Position numbers and translations under genes: made by a program
The notes under the pieces: generated by a model
What the model saw: only the letters and a program-made list of their open reading frames with translations
What the model was told of the DNA's origin: nothing
The model's database searches: none
Assembly: GCF_032108445.1 (NCBI RefSeq)
Contig: NZ_CP134876.1
Location: forward strand, 5,580,001 to 5,644,000
Origin: Micromonospora halotolerans
Lineage (GTDB): Bacteria > Actinomycetota > Actinomycetes > Mycobacteriales > Micromonosporaceae
Length of the DNA: 64,000 nt
Direction of reading: 5' to 3'
Shown: in pieces, positions 16,933-58,035 of the stretch
Layout: every line of letters begins with the position of its first letter
Position numbering within the stretch: position 1 is the first letter of the stretch

Positions 16933-17916
16933 TCAGCGGCGACGCCGGCCTCCGGAGCGGCCGCCCGTCGGGCGCCCGCCGCCCGACCGTCCGCCGGACG
17001 ACCGGGTCACGCCGGGCGACCCGACCGGGGTGACGGTCAGGGACCAGTGCGCGGGGCGGCGCAGGCTCCCGGGCAGGACCGTCCGGTGGTCGCCGCGGGC
17101 CGCGTCGAGCTGGGACTGGTGCACGAAGAGGCAGTCACCGAGGTCGGCCCCGCGCAGGTCGGCGCCGCGCAGGTCGGCCCCGGTCAGGTCGGCCGCGCCG
17201 AGGTCCACCCCGCGCAGGTCGGCGCCGATGAGGCAGGCGCCGCGCAGGTTCGCCCCGGCCAGGTCGGCTCGGCGCAGGTCCACGCCGATCAGCACGGCGC
17301 CGCGCCGGTCGACGCCGGCCCGGCCGGCCCGCGCCTGCTCACCGGCCCGGGACAGCAGCCGGTTGACCCGGTCCCGCTGCGCGTCGACGTCGACGGCGAG
17401 CAGCTCCTCCGGGGTGCCGTCGGTGAGCCGTTCGGTCTCGGTGCGGGCGGCGGCCAGCTCGTCGCGCAGCGGCCCGGCCGGGGTCAGCGCCACGGCCTCG
17501 GTCAGATACCAGAGCAGCTCGTGCAGCGGCCGCATCACCGCGAAGGTGTCGAACATCCGCCGCGCGGTCGCCGGGTCGCCCCGCCAGTCCCGCCCGCCGA
17601 AGGTGCCCTGGGCGACGTGCTGGCCGGCGCCGAAGCAGTCGAAGACGGTGCAGCCGGGGAAGCCACGCTGGCGCAGGTCCCGGTGGATGCCGCAGCGGGA
17701 GTCGGCGCCCAGGTTCGGGCAGGGCTGCCCGGCCGGCTTGTCGATGGCGAAGTCGGCGGAGGCGGCGAACGCCGGCGCGACGCAGCAGATCCCGAAGCAG
17801 CGCGCGCAGTCGGCGCGCAGTTCGGGGGCGCCGCCCGCCGCCCGCTGGTCCACCGCCTCCGACATCCCGCCCGGCCTCCCGCCACCGTCGGGCGCGCCCC
17901 TCACGCCCACCGCCAT
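16933..17916 (-). CDS. Cysteine-rich N-terminal domain plus pentapeptide-repeat protein
   Basis: 327 residues; GGGAG precedes ATG 17916, with an internal ATG 17 codons in as an alternative. The N-terminal third holds at least eight cysteines in a zinc- or cluster-like arrangement: CARCFGICC, then GQPCPN, RCGIH and GCTVFDCFG. The centre is a short helical region. Residues about 205-260 are a pentapeptide-repeat beta-helix with the A(D/N)LxG pattern (ADLAGANLRGACLIGADLRG). The tail is Gly/Arg-rich. Some pentapeptide proteins mimic DNA and protect gyrase, but the cysteine module points elsewhere; the role is unknown. Confidence 0.8.
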   Translation of the reverse strand: MAVGVRGAPDGGGRPGGMSEAVDQRAAGGAPELRADCARCFGICCVAPAFAASADFAIDKPAGQPCPNLGADSRCGIHRDLRQRGFPGCTVFDCFGAGQHVAQGTFGGRDWRGDPATARRMFDTFAVMRPLHELLWYLTEAVALTPAGPLRDELAAARTETERLTDGTPEELLAVDVDAQRDRVNRLLSRAGEQARAGRAGVDRRGAVLIGVDLRRADLAGANLRGACLIGADLRGVDLGAADLTGADLRGADLRGADLGDCLFVHQSQLDAARGDHRTVLPGSLRRPAHWSLTVTPVGSPGVTRSSGGRSGGGRPTGGRSGGRRRR

Positions 17917-35619: not shown

Positions 35620-36929
35620 CCGCCGCCGTCCGTGCCGTTGCGCCGCGCCGGTCCGCCGCCCTGGTCTTCGCGGTGGCCGTCACCGCGTACGTGACCGCGG
35701 TCTTCCACCGCAGCTCGCTCGGCGTCACCGGGGTCGACGCGGCGGACCGCTTCCACATCAACGCCGCCGCCCTGGCCACCTTCAGCGTCGCGCAGCTCGC
35801 CGTCTACGCGGCCATGCAGGTGCCGGTCGGGGTGCTGCTCGACCGGTTCGGCTCGCGCCGGCTGCTGCTGGCCGGCGGCGCGCTCATGGTGGCCGGGCAG
35901 CTCTGCTTCGCCGTGGCCACCGACGTCCGGCTCGCCGTCGCTGCCCGGGTGCTCGTCGGCCTGGGCGACGCGATGACCTTCATCAGCGTGCTGCGGATCG
36001 TGGCGTTCTGGTTCCCGGGCCGGCGCAACCCGCTGCTGGTGCAGCTCACCGGCACGATCGGGCAGCTCGGCGCGGTGCTCGGCGCCGTACCCCTGGTCGC
36101 GCTGCTGCACCACGCGGGCTGGACGCCGGCGTTCCTCACCGCGGCGGCGCTCGGCGCGACCGTGCTGCTGGTGGTGCTCGTCGCGGTCCGGGACACTCCG
36201 CACGCGGAGCACACCACCGCGCTCGCGCCCGACCTGACCACGGTACGCCGGCAGCTCGCCGACGCCTGGGCCCAGCCCGGCACCCGGCTGGGCCTCTGGA
36301 CGCACTTCGTCACGCAGTTCTCCGGCTCGGTGTTCGCCCTGCTCTGGGGCTACCCGTTCCTGGTGCAGGGCCAGGGCTTCTCGCCCACCGCGGCGGCCGG
36401 CCTGCTCACCCTGATGACCGTGGTGACCCTGGTCTGCGGCCCGGTGATCGCCCACCTGTGCGCCCGGCACCCGTTCCACCGCTCGGCCGTGGTCTTCGCC
36501 ATCACCGCCGGCACGGCCGCCGTCTGGGCGGTGGTGCTGGCCTGGCCCGGCCGCGCCCCGCACGGGCTGCTCGTGGCCCTCGTGGTCGTCCTCGCGGTCA
36601 ACGGCCCCGGCTCGGTGATCGGCTTCGACTACGCGCGCACCTTCAACCCGGTGCACCGGATCGGCAGCGCCACCGGCATCGTCAACGTCGGCGGGTTCGT
36701 CGCCTCGATCCTGCTGATCCTGGCGGTCGGCGTGGTGCTCGACCTGGCCACCCCGGCCGGCCGGAGCGCGCCGCCGCTGTCGGCGTTCCGCTGGGCGTTC
36801 GCCGTGCAGTACCTGCTCTGGGCGCTGGGCGCGGTGCAGGTGCTGCGCTACCGCAACGCCGCCCGCCGCCGCTACGCCGCCGACACCCTGCGGTTGCCCG
36901 CCGGCGCGGTGGGGAGCCCGGTCACGTGA
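35616..36929 (+). CDS. Major facilitator superfamily transporter with GntR partner
   Basis: 437 residues with twelve hydrophobic helices. Helix 1 ends YVTAVFHRSSLGVTG, and the loop after helix 2 is VPVGVLLDRFGSRRLLLAGG, the MFS signature. The sequence is close to nitrate/sugar-acid type carriers annotated only as MFS. Start GTG overlaps the GntR stop. The last 8 bp overlap the convergent membrane protein gene. Confidence 0.88.
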   Translation: MTAAVRAVAPRRSAALVFAVAVTAYVTAVFHRSSLGVTGVDAADRFHINAAALATFSVAQLAVYAAMQVPVGVLLDRFGSRRLLLAGGALMVAGQLCFAVATDVRLAVAARVLVGLGDAMTFISVLRIVAFWFPGRRNPLLVQLTGTIGQLGAVLGAVPLVALLHHAGWTPAFLTAAALGATVLLVVLVAVRDTPHAEHTTALAPDLTTVRRQLADAWAQPGTRLGLWTHFVTQFSGSVFALLWGYPFLVQGQGFSPTAAAGLLTLMTVVTLVCGPVIAHLCARHPFHRSAVVFAITAGTAAVWAVVLAWPGRAPHGLLVALVVVLAVNGPGSVIGFDYARTFNPVHRIGSATGIVNVGGFVASILLILAVGVVLDLATPAGRSAPPLSAFRWAFAVQYLLWALGAVQVLRYRNAARRRYAADTLRLPAGAVGSPVT

Positions 36930-37341: not shown

Positions 37342-37470
37342 GATCACTCCCGTCGGTGCCGGACAACCGGGCCACCGCGTACCCGGCGACGCGCGGGGAT
37401 AACCCGCCGGACGGCGGTGGGCCGCGCACCGTGATCAGCGGTAGGTTTTCGACGCACAGCGAACGCAGGG

Positions 37471-37594
37471 GGCACCGTGAGCGCGAGGAGCGAGCCGGGT
37501 CTGCGAGCCCCGCAGTCGCGAACGAAGGAGGCACCGTGAGCGCGAGGAGCGAGCCGGGTCTGCGAGCCCCGCAGTCGCGAACGAAGGAGGCAGA
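37471..37594 (+). repeat. Two identical tandem 59-bp units plus partial copies
   Basis: Copy 1 spans 37471-37529 and copy 2 spans 37530-37588; they are identical. The first bases of a third unit (GGCA) run into the mscR start, and a degenerate tail of a unit (GAACGCAGGGGGCACC) precedes copy 1. Each unit carries its own GTG, and each ends with AAGGAGG, the ribosome site for the next unit. It also contains CTGCG-agccc-CGCAG, a 5-bp hairpin inside GCGA/TCGC. Confidence 0.9.
37477..37539 (+). CDS. Coupled 20-codon mini-ORF, copy 1
   Basis: GTG 37477 to TGA 37537-37539 encodes [20 protein letters not shown]. Its stop overlaps the GTG of copy 2 by the sequence GTGA. The ribosome site upstream is a weaker CAGGGGG. 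The 59-bp period is not a multiple of three, yet each unit is a complete 63-bp ORF because of the 4-bp overlaps. Whether it is translated is inferred from architecture. Confidence 0.5.
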
Positions 37595-37598
37595 GTGA
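37536..37598 (+). CDS. Coupled 20-codon mini-ORF, copy 2, overlapping mscR start
   Basis: GTG 37536 to TGA 37596-37598, preceded by AAGGAGG with a 4-nt gap. The peptide is the same as copy 1 except that the last residue is Glu. The stop overlaps the GTG of mscR at 37595. A ribosome finishing this peptide is placed to start mscR, which also has its own AAGGAGG. Confidence 0.5.
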
Positions 37599-38683
37599 GC
37601 CAGGAAGTCCGGGGAGTCGTTTCGCGGCGCAAGGGCGCGCCCGTGGAGGTCACCACCATCGTGGTGCCCGACCCGGGGCCGGGCGAGGCGGTGGTGCGCG
37701 TCCAGTCCTGCGGGGTGTGCCACACCGACCTGCACTACCGCGAGGGCGGCATCAACGACGACTACCCGTTCCTGCTCGGCCACGAGGCCGCCGGCATCGT
37801 GGAGCAGGTGGGGGAGGGGGTCACCGAGGTGGCCCCCGGCGACTTCGTGGTGCTCAACTGGCGGGCGGTCTGCGGGCAGTGCCGCGCCTGCCGGCGGGGC
37901 CGCCCCTGGTACTGCTTCAACACCCACAACGCCGCGCAGAGGATGACGCTCACCGACGGCACCGAGCTCGCGCCCGCCCTGGGCATCGGCGCGTTCGCCG
38001 AGAAGACCCTGGTGCACGCCGGCCAGTGCACCAAGGTCGACCCGTCCGCCCGGCCCGCCGCCGTCGGCCTGCTCGGCTGCGGCGTCATGGCCGGCCTGGG
38101 CGCGGCCATGAACACCGGCAACGTGACCCGGGGCGACTCGGTCGCGGTGATCGGCTGCGGCGGGGTCGGCGACGCGGCGGTGGCCGGCGCGACCCTGGCC
38201 GGCGCGACCACCGTCATCGCCGTGGACACCGACTCGCGGAAGCTCGACTGGGCGCGGAAGTTCGGCGCCACGCACACCGTCAACGCCTCGGAGGAGGACC
38301 CGGTCGAGGCCATCCGCGCCGCGACCGGCGGATTCGGCGCCGACGTGGTCATCGACGCGGTGGGCCGCCCGGAGACCTGGAAGCAGGCCTTCTACGCCCG
38401 CGATCTGGCCGGCACCGTCGTGCTGGTCGGCGTACCCACCCCGGAGATGAGGATCGAGCTGCCGCTGCTGGACGTCTTCGGCCGCGGCGGCGCCCTCAAG
38501 TCCAGCTGGTACGGCGACTGCCTGCCCAGCCGCGACTTCCCGATGCTCACCGAGCTGTACCGGCAGGGCCGCCTCGACCTGGACGCCTTCGTCACCGAGG
38601 AGATCGCCCTCGACCAGGTCGAGGAGGCGTTCACCCGGATGCACCACGGTGACGTGCTCCGGTCGGTGGTGGTCTTCCCGTGA
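37595..38683 (+). CDS. mscR: S-(hydroxymethyl)mycothiol dehydrogenase
   Basis: 362 residues of the zinc-dependent alcohol dehydrogenase family. Catalytic zinc ligands: [17 protein letters not shown] and [10 protein letters not shown]; structural zinc cysteines: [15 protein letters not shown]. The coenzyme loop is [22 protein letters not shown] is characteristic of the mycothiol-dependent formaldehyde dehydrogenases. It oxidises the adduct of formaldehyde and mycothiol, using NAD+, in the cytoplasm. It is followed with a 4-bp overlap by an MBL hydrolase, the usual partner. Translation is coupled upstream to two tandem mini-ORFs. Confidence 0.93.
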
Positions 38684-39309
38684 CCGCCCGCGTCGACCAC
38701 ACGGTCACCTCCGGCACGTTCTCCCTCGACGGGCAGACCTTCGACGTCGACAACAACGTCTGGGTGGTCGGCGACGACGACGAGTGCGTGGTCGTCGACG
38801 CGCCGCACGACGTCGCCGCCATCCGCGCGGTGGTCGGCGACCGCCGGGTGGTCGCCGTCCTGGCCACCCACGCGCACGACGACCACGTCCGGGTCGCGCC
38901 CGAGCTGGCCCGGGCCACCGGCGCGCCGGTGCTGCTGCACCCGGCCGACCGGGTGCTCTGGGACCTGGTCCACCCGGACACCCCGCCCGACGGCGACCTC
39001 GCCGACGGGGAGACCGTCGAGGTCGGCGGCACCACCCTCCGGGTGCTGCACACCCCGGGCCACAGCCCCGGCGCGTGCAGCCTCTACGCCCCCGACCTCG
39101 GCGCGGTCTTCACCGGGGACACTCTCTTCGCCGGCGGTCCCGGCGCCACCGGCCGCTCCTTCAGCGACTTCGGCACCATCGTGGAGTCGATCCGCACCCG
39201 CCTGCTCACCCTGCCGCCGCAGACCGTGGTCCACACCGGGCACGGCGACGACACCAGCATCGCCGCCGAGGCGCCCCACCTCGACGAGTGGATCGCCCGG
39301 GGGCACTGA
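38680..39309 (+). CDS. MBL-fold metallohydrolase, partner of mscR
   Basis: 209 residues. The metallo-beta-lactamase motif THAHDDHV binds the zinc ions, followed by [22 protein letters not shown] and VVHTGHGDD. The size and layout match glyoxalase II-like thioesterases. GTG start overlaps the mscR stop. In actinobacteria this gene is the standard neighbour of mscR and probably hydrolyses S-formylmycothiol to formate and mycothiol; that reaction is inferred. Confidence 0.9.
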
Positions 39310-57880: not shown

Positions 57881-57916
57881 CAGCGGCGCCCCGGCCATCC
57901 GGCCGGGGCGCCGCTG
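57881..57916 (+). terminator. Attenuator-like terminator ahead of fdhA
   Basis: CAGCGGCGCCCCGGCC (57881-57896), loop ATCC, GGCCGGGGCGCCGCTG (57901-57916), then TTTCTG. A perfect 16-bp stem placed between the structured leader and the formate dehydrogenase genes, and not directly behind a coding region. Confidence 0.75.
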
Positions 57917-58035
57917 TTTCTGCGTCTCCCGGGCTGCACCGCGACCCCGCCCGGCCGGGGCGCCGCTGTTTCTGCGTCTCCCGGGCTGCACCGCGACCCC
58001 GCCGGGCCGGGGCGCCGCTGTTTTCCGCGTCCTGG
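57901..58035 (+). repeat. 52-bp tandem repeat carrying the terminator's right arm
   Basis: Units start at 57901, 57953 and 58005 (period 52). The first two are nearly identical; the third keeps about 30 bp (GGCCGGGGCGCCGCTGTTTT) and then diverges. Each unit begins with the right arm of the terminator, so the single left arm could pair with any of three partners. The rest of 57,666-58,108 has no gene. Confidence 0.85.

Follow-up and report, generated by a model that had tools for sequence, protein, structure and literature searches.

The mscR gene of Micromonospora halotolerans is preceded by two short units, arranged head to tail directly 5' of its start codon, in which a small ORF beginning with GTG ends in a TGA lying inside a GTGA that also holds the next start. 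The locus raises the question of what such a chain is and how it came to stand there. The original prediction, made on a window of 64,000 nucleotides (the whole stretch of DNA analysed), had offered a translational relay, a leader peptide sensing the state of the ribosome, or a mobile short repeat bringing its own translation start. We consider it highly probable that the unit is a non-autonomous mobile repeat of the Micromonosporaceae, akin to the mycobacterial interspersed repetitive units (MIRUs; Supply et al. 1997), and one whose anatomy would let ribosomes re-initiate through its mini-ORF onto the next gene. Coordinates of the features at the locus are collected in Table 1.

Table 1. Features of the mscR locus (positions in the window)
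Feature	Position	Strand	Remarks
Repeat unit 1	37477..37535	+	59 bp
Repeat unit 2	37536..37594	+	59 bp; last 2 bases unlike those of unit 1; same-species genome G234 has one unit here
Mini-ORF 1	37477..37539	+	63 nt, 20 codons and stop; 4-nt stop/start overlap with mini-ORF 2
Mini-ORF 2	37536..37598	+	63 nt, 20 codons and stop; 4-nt overlap with mscR start
AAGGAGG, Shine-Dalgarno-like, carried by unit 1	37525..37531	+	sequence
AAGGAGG, Shine-Dalgarno-like, now 5' of mscR	37584..37590	+	sequence
Putative -10 element TAGGTT of mscR promoter, just upstream of array	37442..37447	+	TAG[GT]TT in 23/24 same-genus loci; promoter function inferred
Old target: probable original ribosome-binding site and start region of mscR, today 5' of mini-ORF 1	37459..37480	+	like the stretch directly 5' of mscR in some element-free relatives
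mscR, S-(hydroxymethyl)mycothiol dehydrogenase, GTG start at 37595	37595..38683	+	TIGR03451, 703.8 bits (cut-off 512.9)
MBL-fold hydrolase gene	38680..39309	+	PF00753; GTGA 4-nt overlap with mscR, element-free

The anatomy first described at this locus, with its 20-codon GTG ORFs, GTGA overlaps, AAGGAGG motifs and a last stop overlapping the GTG of mscR, is borne out in the sequence. The two units, said to be identical, are both 59 bp long but differ in their last two bases (CC in unit 1, GA in unit 2), so that the peptides end in P and E, respectively. TRF assigns the array a period of 59, 2.4 copies and 95% matches. The arrangement exceeds chance, as had been claimed: a 21-nt part of the unit has 2 matches in the window against 0.02 expected, and 2 were reached in 0 of 100 shuffles. 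Rfam covariance models gave 0 matches at E up to 1 between positions 36900 and 38000. Two other tandem arrays were seen in the window: a 52-bp repeat at 57899-58031 (2.5 copies, 96% matches), apparently intergenic and with GC-rich parts, and an array at 17138-17334 with periods of 15, 30 and 60 which, to judge from the period, may be a minus-strand coding region for pentapeptide repeats.

An 83-nt query gave 57 matches in the 6.96-Mb genome, grouped by hand into 40 loci, and two variant queries added 7 more, bringing the total to about 47. Copies fall into three main core classes, to all of which the right half GAGCCCCGCAGTCGCGAAC is common. This exact 19-nt core is present in 78 of 200 genomes of the family sample and in 17 of 44 genera, including all 38 same-genus genomes (2 to 47 copies each); the reversed pattern scored 0 throughout the same 200 genomes. 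In a class-wide sample the 19-mer occurred in 3 of 394 genomes, all three of the same genus, and in 0 of the 391 sampled class genomes outside the genus; nor was it found, searched as the exact 19-mer, in the genomes sampled from other families of the same order. Scanning of GTDB contigs returned the core in at least 120 stretches, and the names among the matches listed (80 records) are Micromonospora, Plantactinospora, Phytohabitans, Catellatospora, Catenuloplanes, Planosporangium and "Micromonosporaceae bacterium", genera which we take to belong to the Micromonosporaceae. The original prediction was right to suspect a dispersed repeat of the group, and right in its idea of a mobile one bringing its own translation start. 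Among the full-text literature matches listed, judged by title and the start of the abstract and drawn mostly from outside the subscription journals, none reports this Micromonospora repeat family.

No transposase or autonomous partner of the repeat was seen in a search of limited breadth. Two copies, at 2520874 (L460) and 4243880 (L058) of the own genome, were considered as ends of a longer autonomous element and rejected: both are gene starts with a remnant, in which the first ~20 nt of the repeat alone are left and open the coding sequences there.

Nearly all classifiable copies lie at gene starts. By hand count, the 40 own-genome loci divide into 30 coupled to the gene that follows, 2 in-frame fusions, 3 that have kept the end phase and lost the start, and 5 of other kinds; at 27 of the 40, the first unit's TGA is the exact stop of an upstream ORF 80 codons or more in length. 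Sixty loci from five other genomes, picked by the 3' core alone, comprised 48 coupled and 9 fused in frame, with 1 other, 1 without the 5' half and 1 at a contig end, and the upstream stop fell on the first TGA at 47 of 58 classified loci. Placement is therefore non-random and most frames are unbroken, the reverse of the two outcomes that had been thought to speak against the chain.

In all, 168 arrays were found, of which 138 were classified and 30 left out (16 lay too close to a locus end, 10 had no clear coding frame downstream and 4 lacked the 5' half). One exact 19-mer was required of each own-genome array. Clustering, in which shared insertions were merged solely by similarity of the downstream 300 bp, removed the double counts of overlapping loci and gave 86 distinct sites with one row each. 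In a strict chain test, each link had to be a stop/start overlap of 1, 4 or 8 nt, and real and control rows were handled alike; allowing extra starts rescued no row. The chain begins at the upstream gene's stop in 115 of the 138 arrays and was followed from the first mini-ORF only in 23.

As to phase, 70 of the 86 sites are coupling, 13 in frame and 3 neither (binomial p 7e-20 against 1/3); the figures for all 138 arrays are 113, 21 and 4. The strict test found 72 sites coupled, 8 fused, 3 absorbed and 3 with no chain, the links being almost all 4-nt, so that at 83 of 86 sites the mini-ORFs either chain stop to start without a break or are fused in frame. Across the 138 arrays there were 114 coupled, 15 fused, 3 absorbed and 6 failures (L086, L260, L278, L292, L305 and L338). 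L292, a clear frameshift, is the only one of the 4 arrays in neither phase that also fails the chain test. Simulated 1-nt deletions (860 trials on the 86 sites) left no chain in 698 cases (81%), with 99 coupled and 63 fused; deletions of 2 nt on the same sites gave 499 fused, 172 coupled, 187 none and 2 absorbed. Shine-Dalgarno-like 4-mers precede 63 of 69 coupled downstream starts, the stronger ones (GGAG, GAGG, AGGA) 28 of 69. Altogether, the relay envisaged at mscR stands as an anatomical arrangement across the 86 sites, and not as a measured process. Since a GC3-based sense/antisense test of the neighbours did not discriminate, both strands scoring alike, our statement on orientation rests on the exact coincidence of stop and start. 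At least one own-genome copy, at 1415490 (L477), looks unlike a sense-strand junction.

Empty sites were found at mscR and at two his junctions. By comparison of copies, the element is a fixed part of roughly 50-55 bp accompanied by a short copy of the target; it enters at a start codon, usually one overlapping the prior gene's stop (NTGA or TGATG), with the last few target bases, including NTG(A), present on both of its sides. At the best resolved site, the element's own bases begin just behind the first NTG, and its 3' end carries the Shine-Dalgarno-like consensus GAAGGNGG. Behind hisB, the filled junction of G000 reads CTCTGATG-element-CTCTGATG, whereas the empty junctions of G163 or G084 have a single CTCTGATG; the start-codon bases have therefore been duplicated. 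A duplication test that took in 60 of the 86 sites gave a mean agreement of 5.97 between the 14 nt preceding the first and the last NTGA, as against 5.04 when shuffled (sd 0.19; 0 of 2000 shuffles above 5.7). The signal is short, residing in the last four bases before NTGA, and the base just before NTGA matches in 65% of cases against 26% expected (n=60). With entry at a start codon and duplication of NTG(A), the new unit therefore forms a mini-ORF running from the old start to a stop in the second start/stop overlap, and after insertion the units multiply locally in tandem. The empty sites, the short target duplication and the varying number of units together show insertion and local amplification.

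The his junctions were compared in 30 genomes. Both empty and filled junctions occur before and behind hisB, and the element is present versus absent at hisB within the same species. Between hisB and the next gene, with all in-frame starts allowed and a deletion control added, 20 of 20 filled junctions are strict chains, several through spacers that no longer look like the repeat; 1-nt deletions left 14 coupled and 24 fused of 400. The 10 unfilled sites here consist of 8 direct overlaps and 2 without overlap. Before hisB, 13 filled sites comprise 7 strict chains, 1 HisB fusion, 4 C-terminal extensions of HisC and 1 site that fails the strict test, its mini-ORF start being 13 nt downstream of the stop's first base. 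Decayed hisC-hisB copies shortened by 21 bp (G020, G016) still end in ATGA, and copies with a shifted start chain too. Most decayed copies still link the upstream stop to the downstream start through the chain, or are fused in frame with the prior or the next gene. In 4 of the 30 relatives a repeat remnant now forms a C-terminal extension of HisC. The own genome has three copies in or beside the hisB region, at 4440896, 4441560 and 4442425 (L093, L075).

Unit length was analysed in relation to the overlaps. At 70 coupled sites the last unit measures 59 bp in 49 cases, 62 in 10, 56 in 8 and 65 in 1, while the two remaining rows are aberrant, at -1 and 92; these lengths are 2 mod 3, which 4-nt and 1-nt overlaps both require. 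At 4302816 of the own genome, four 58-bp units, each ending in the 8-nt overlap GTGGCTGA, follow a 494-codon upstream ORF. The period there is 1 mod 3, as required by an 8-nt overlap, and the downstream gene itself overlaps its neighbour by 8 nt (GTGGCTGA). By eye, the gene after this array, an exception to the 59-bp rule, reads as threonine-aldolase-type (L474 1-3501, own genome 4301000-4304500). A further departure from 2 mod 3 is seen in 11 of 44 tandem intervals, which are 60 (7) or 61 (4) bp long. Such arrays nevertheless score as coupled or fused, for one of two reasons. In the 60-bp arrays one unit is read straight into the next, giving a fused (L071, L241, L363) or coupled (L249, L354) end; in the 61-bp arrays (L238, L355) the next unit has an internal GTGA at which the first ORF terminates, and the test still detects a chain. 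Where 60-bp units are fused in frame, the tilS product (L071 3001-4092) has two repeat-derived N-terminal blocks and an HlyD-like protein (L078 3011-4327) has three.

The mscR locus itself was compared in 41 genomes, 38 of which have MscR; the 24 of these from the same genus formed the set used. A recognisable core is present at 2 of the 24 loci, with two units here and three in G018, and G009 has a decayed 39-bp remnant, in frame. Arrays of 0, 1, 2 or 3 units occur among relatives; the same-species pair has one unit in G234 versus two here, and M. chaiyaphumensis has one unit whose mini-ORF start codon has been lost (GCG). With the core at so few loci, the right half read in different frames and a start lost, the proposed leader peptide sensing ribosome state is not supported. 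An mscR-specific leader or attenuator was likewise rejected, as it is not conserved 5' of mscR in relatives.

What had been taken for a degenerate unit tail before unit 1 has a counterpart directly 5' of mscR in unit-free relatives (e.g. G021, G019 and G022). Since some relatives' empty leaders also have a similar stretch, the simplest reading of it is as the original ribosome-binding site of mscR; alternatively, an older copy could have left it behind as a scar. The conservation of TAG[GT]TT upstream of mscR suggests that the array, which no gene precedes, is probably part of the 5' untranslated leader. Since no gene stands in front, the relay at mscR looks optional, unlike at the his junctions. 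Ribosomes would here be expected to load at the old mscR binding site, as the array has no upstream gene, and would reach mscR after one or two extra rounds. Running counter to a constant relay at this gene are the species without a mini-ORF start and the one with the in-frame 39-bp remnant.

We envisaged that the phase could be a mechanical by-product, the element's length being always 2 mod 3 and the chain thus kept without selection at each site. The clustering of lengths on 59 bp agrees with this, as a young family would have a common length. However, lengths within core classes vary by multiples of 3, the site with 8-nt overlaps has 58-bp units, and the hisC-hisB copies that are 21 bp shorter or start-shifted still chain, as do all hisB/next gene junctions, some of them beyond recognition as repeats; these data make a purely mechanical origin very doubtful. 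It might also be thought that the mini-ORF peptide is the product, a small functional family spread by duplication, given that the left part VSARS recurs in most copies. Yet GAGCCCCGCAGTCGCGAAC encodes RAPQSRT in one subfamily and SPAVAN in others, and in the hisB copy the left half is read in another frame (VGARGAS) and the chain still closes. The different frames of the conserved right half imply that the peptide is not what is kept, and a peptide product is extremely improbable; the kept thing is, on this comparison, the hand-over and the nucleotides. REP/BIME elements are palindromic intergenic repeats, short and dispersed. The Micromonospora repeat is likewise short and dispersed, and CGCGA and TCGCG lie, by eye, near the two ends of the core, as might befit a palindromic or protein-binding DNA repeat placed at gene starts incidentally. 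But folding of the three-unit RNA gave no stable hairpin and was no better than shuffles (z-scores +1.57, +0.46 and +0.67), and the repeat sits at translation starts, its position matching the stop and start to the base, so that we regard this reading as exceedingly unlikely.

A regulatory role deserves separate consideration. The mini-ORF copy number, or a carried promoter, might tune mscR and other downstream genes and so form an adaptive VNTR switch. The variation from 0 to 3 units at mscR among relatives, and from 1 to 2 within the species, would suit such a role, and mycobacterial precedents exist: a passage of PMC2734929 relates the repeat length of the MIRU-VNTR upstream of M. tuberculosis fpg1 to mRNA level, and one of PMC4213456 attributes senX3-independent regX3 expression to the MIRU-bearing senX3-regX3 spacer. 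Against it, the recognisable core is missing at 22 of 24 same-genus mscR loci, the peptide frame is not conserved, and the RNA folds no better than shuffles. Moreover, the downstream genes scanned (mscR and 17 of 35 others listed) are unrelated in kind, with TsaE, TilS, Der, quinolinate phosphoribosyltransferase, NADH dehydrogenase and others among them. We therefore hold the regulatory account to be unlikely. Distinctly unlikely, in our judgement, is that the repeat is aimed at junctions and does not just survive there; it would then be a mobile sequence without a protein, entering in the sense direction exactly behind the start codon, perhaps by an mRNA- or ribosome-linked step (e.g. an RNA copy), with the gene overlap as target signal.

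Under the preferred reading of a mobile repeat that rides on translation, ribosomes ending one gene would re-initiate on the mini-ORF, whose translation is predicted from its sequence, and then on the next gene. Re-initiation of this kind would leave downstream translation nearly intact after insertion, and such copies would survive for that reason. Natural insertions are plentiful in Micromonospora, and alongside them stand empty sites, decayed copies and variants in copy number. They make it possible to test how strong a selection guards the hand-over of ribosomes between overlapping genes, and how so small a sequence gets to start codons. For annotation, copies in frame with a gene may add length to its predicted product, N-terminally in tilS and the HlyD-like gene and C-terminally in hisC of some relatives, and the gene starts at L071 and L078 (tilS and HlyD-like) may be misannotated.

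The closest known kind of element is the MIRU, with which the Micromonospora repeat shares its principle when descriptions are set side by side. A passage of PMC12548453 presents MIRUs as apparently mobile, inserting at start codons, with an inner ORF coupled at -4 nt and a likely minimal impact on the gene. The Micromonospora repeat resembles them in being short and dispersed over about 47 own-genome loci (41 places are given for MIRUs in H37Rv in part of PMC2734929), in its insertion at start codons, the sites at mscR and the two his junctions being empty elsewhere, and in having an inner ORF whose stop overlaps the downstream start by 4 nt (48 of 60 loci coupled; 72 of 86 sites). Tandem copy number also varies: there are 0 to 3 units at mscR, and for ETR-D, with its 77-bp unit, PMC2453075 gives 1 to 7. 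MIRU unit lengths of 77 and 53 bp, as they appear in sections of PMC4213456 and PMC2453075, are by our arithmetic 2 mod 3, as are most Micromonospora units, which differ in measuring mostly 56-62 bp and in residing in another host family. As the likeness is drawn from descriptions and the host family differs, we call the repeat MIRU-like and not a MIRU. Native gene pairs offer a second parallel: parts of PMC12548453 and PMC6728339 treat coupled short upstream ORFs and termination-reinitiation at ATGA or TGATG overlaps. The stop/start overlaps and the proposed hand-over of ribosomes are the same there, whereas in Micromonospora the middle ORF is an inserted repeat. In conclusion, these comparisons suggest that repeats of the MIRU type, which exploit translational coupling, are not peculiar to mycobacteria.
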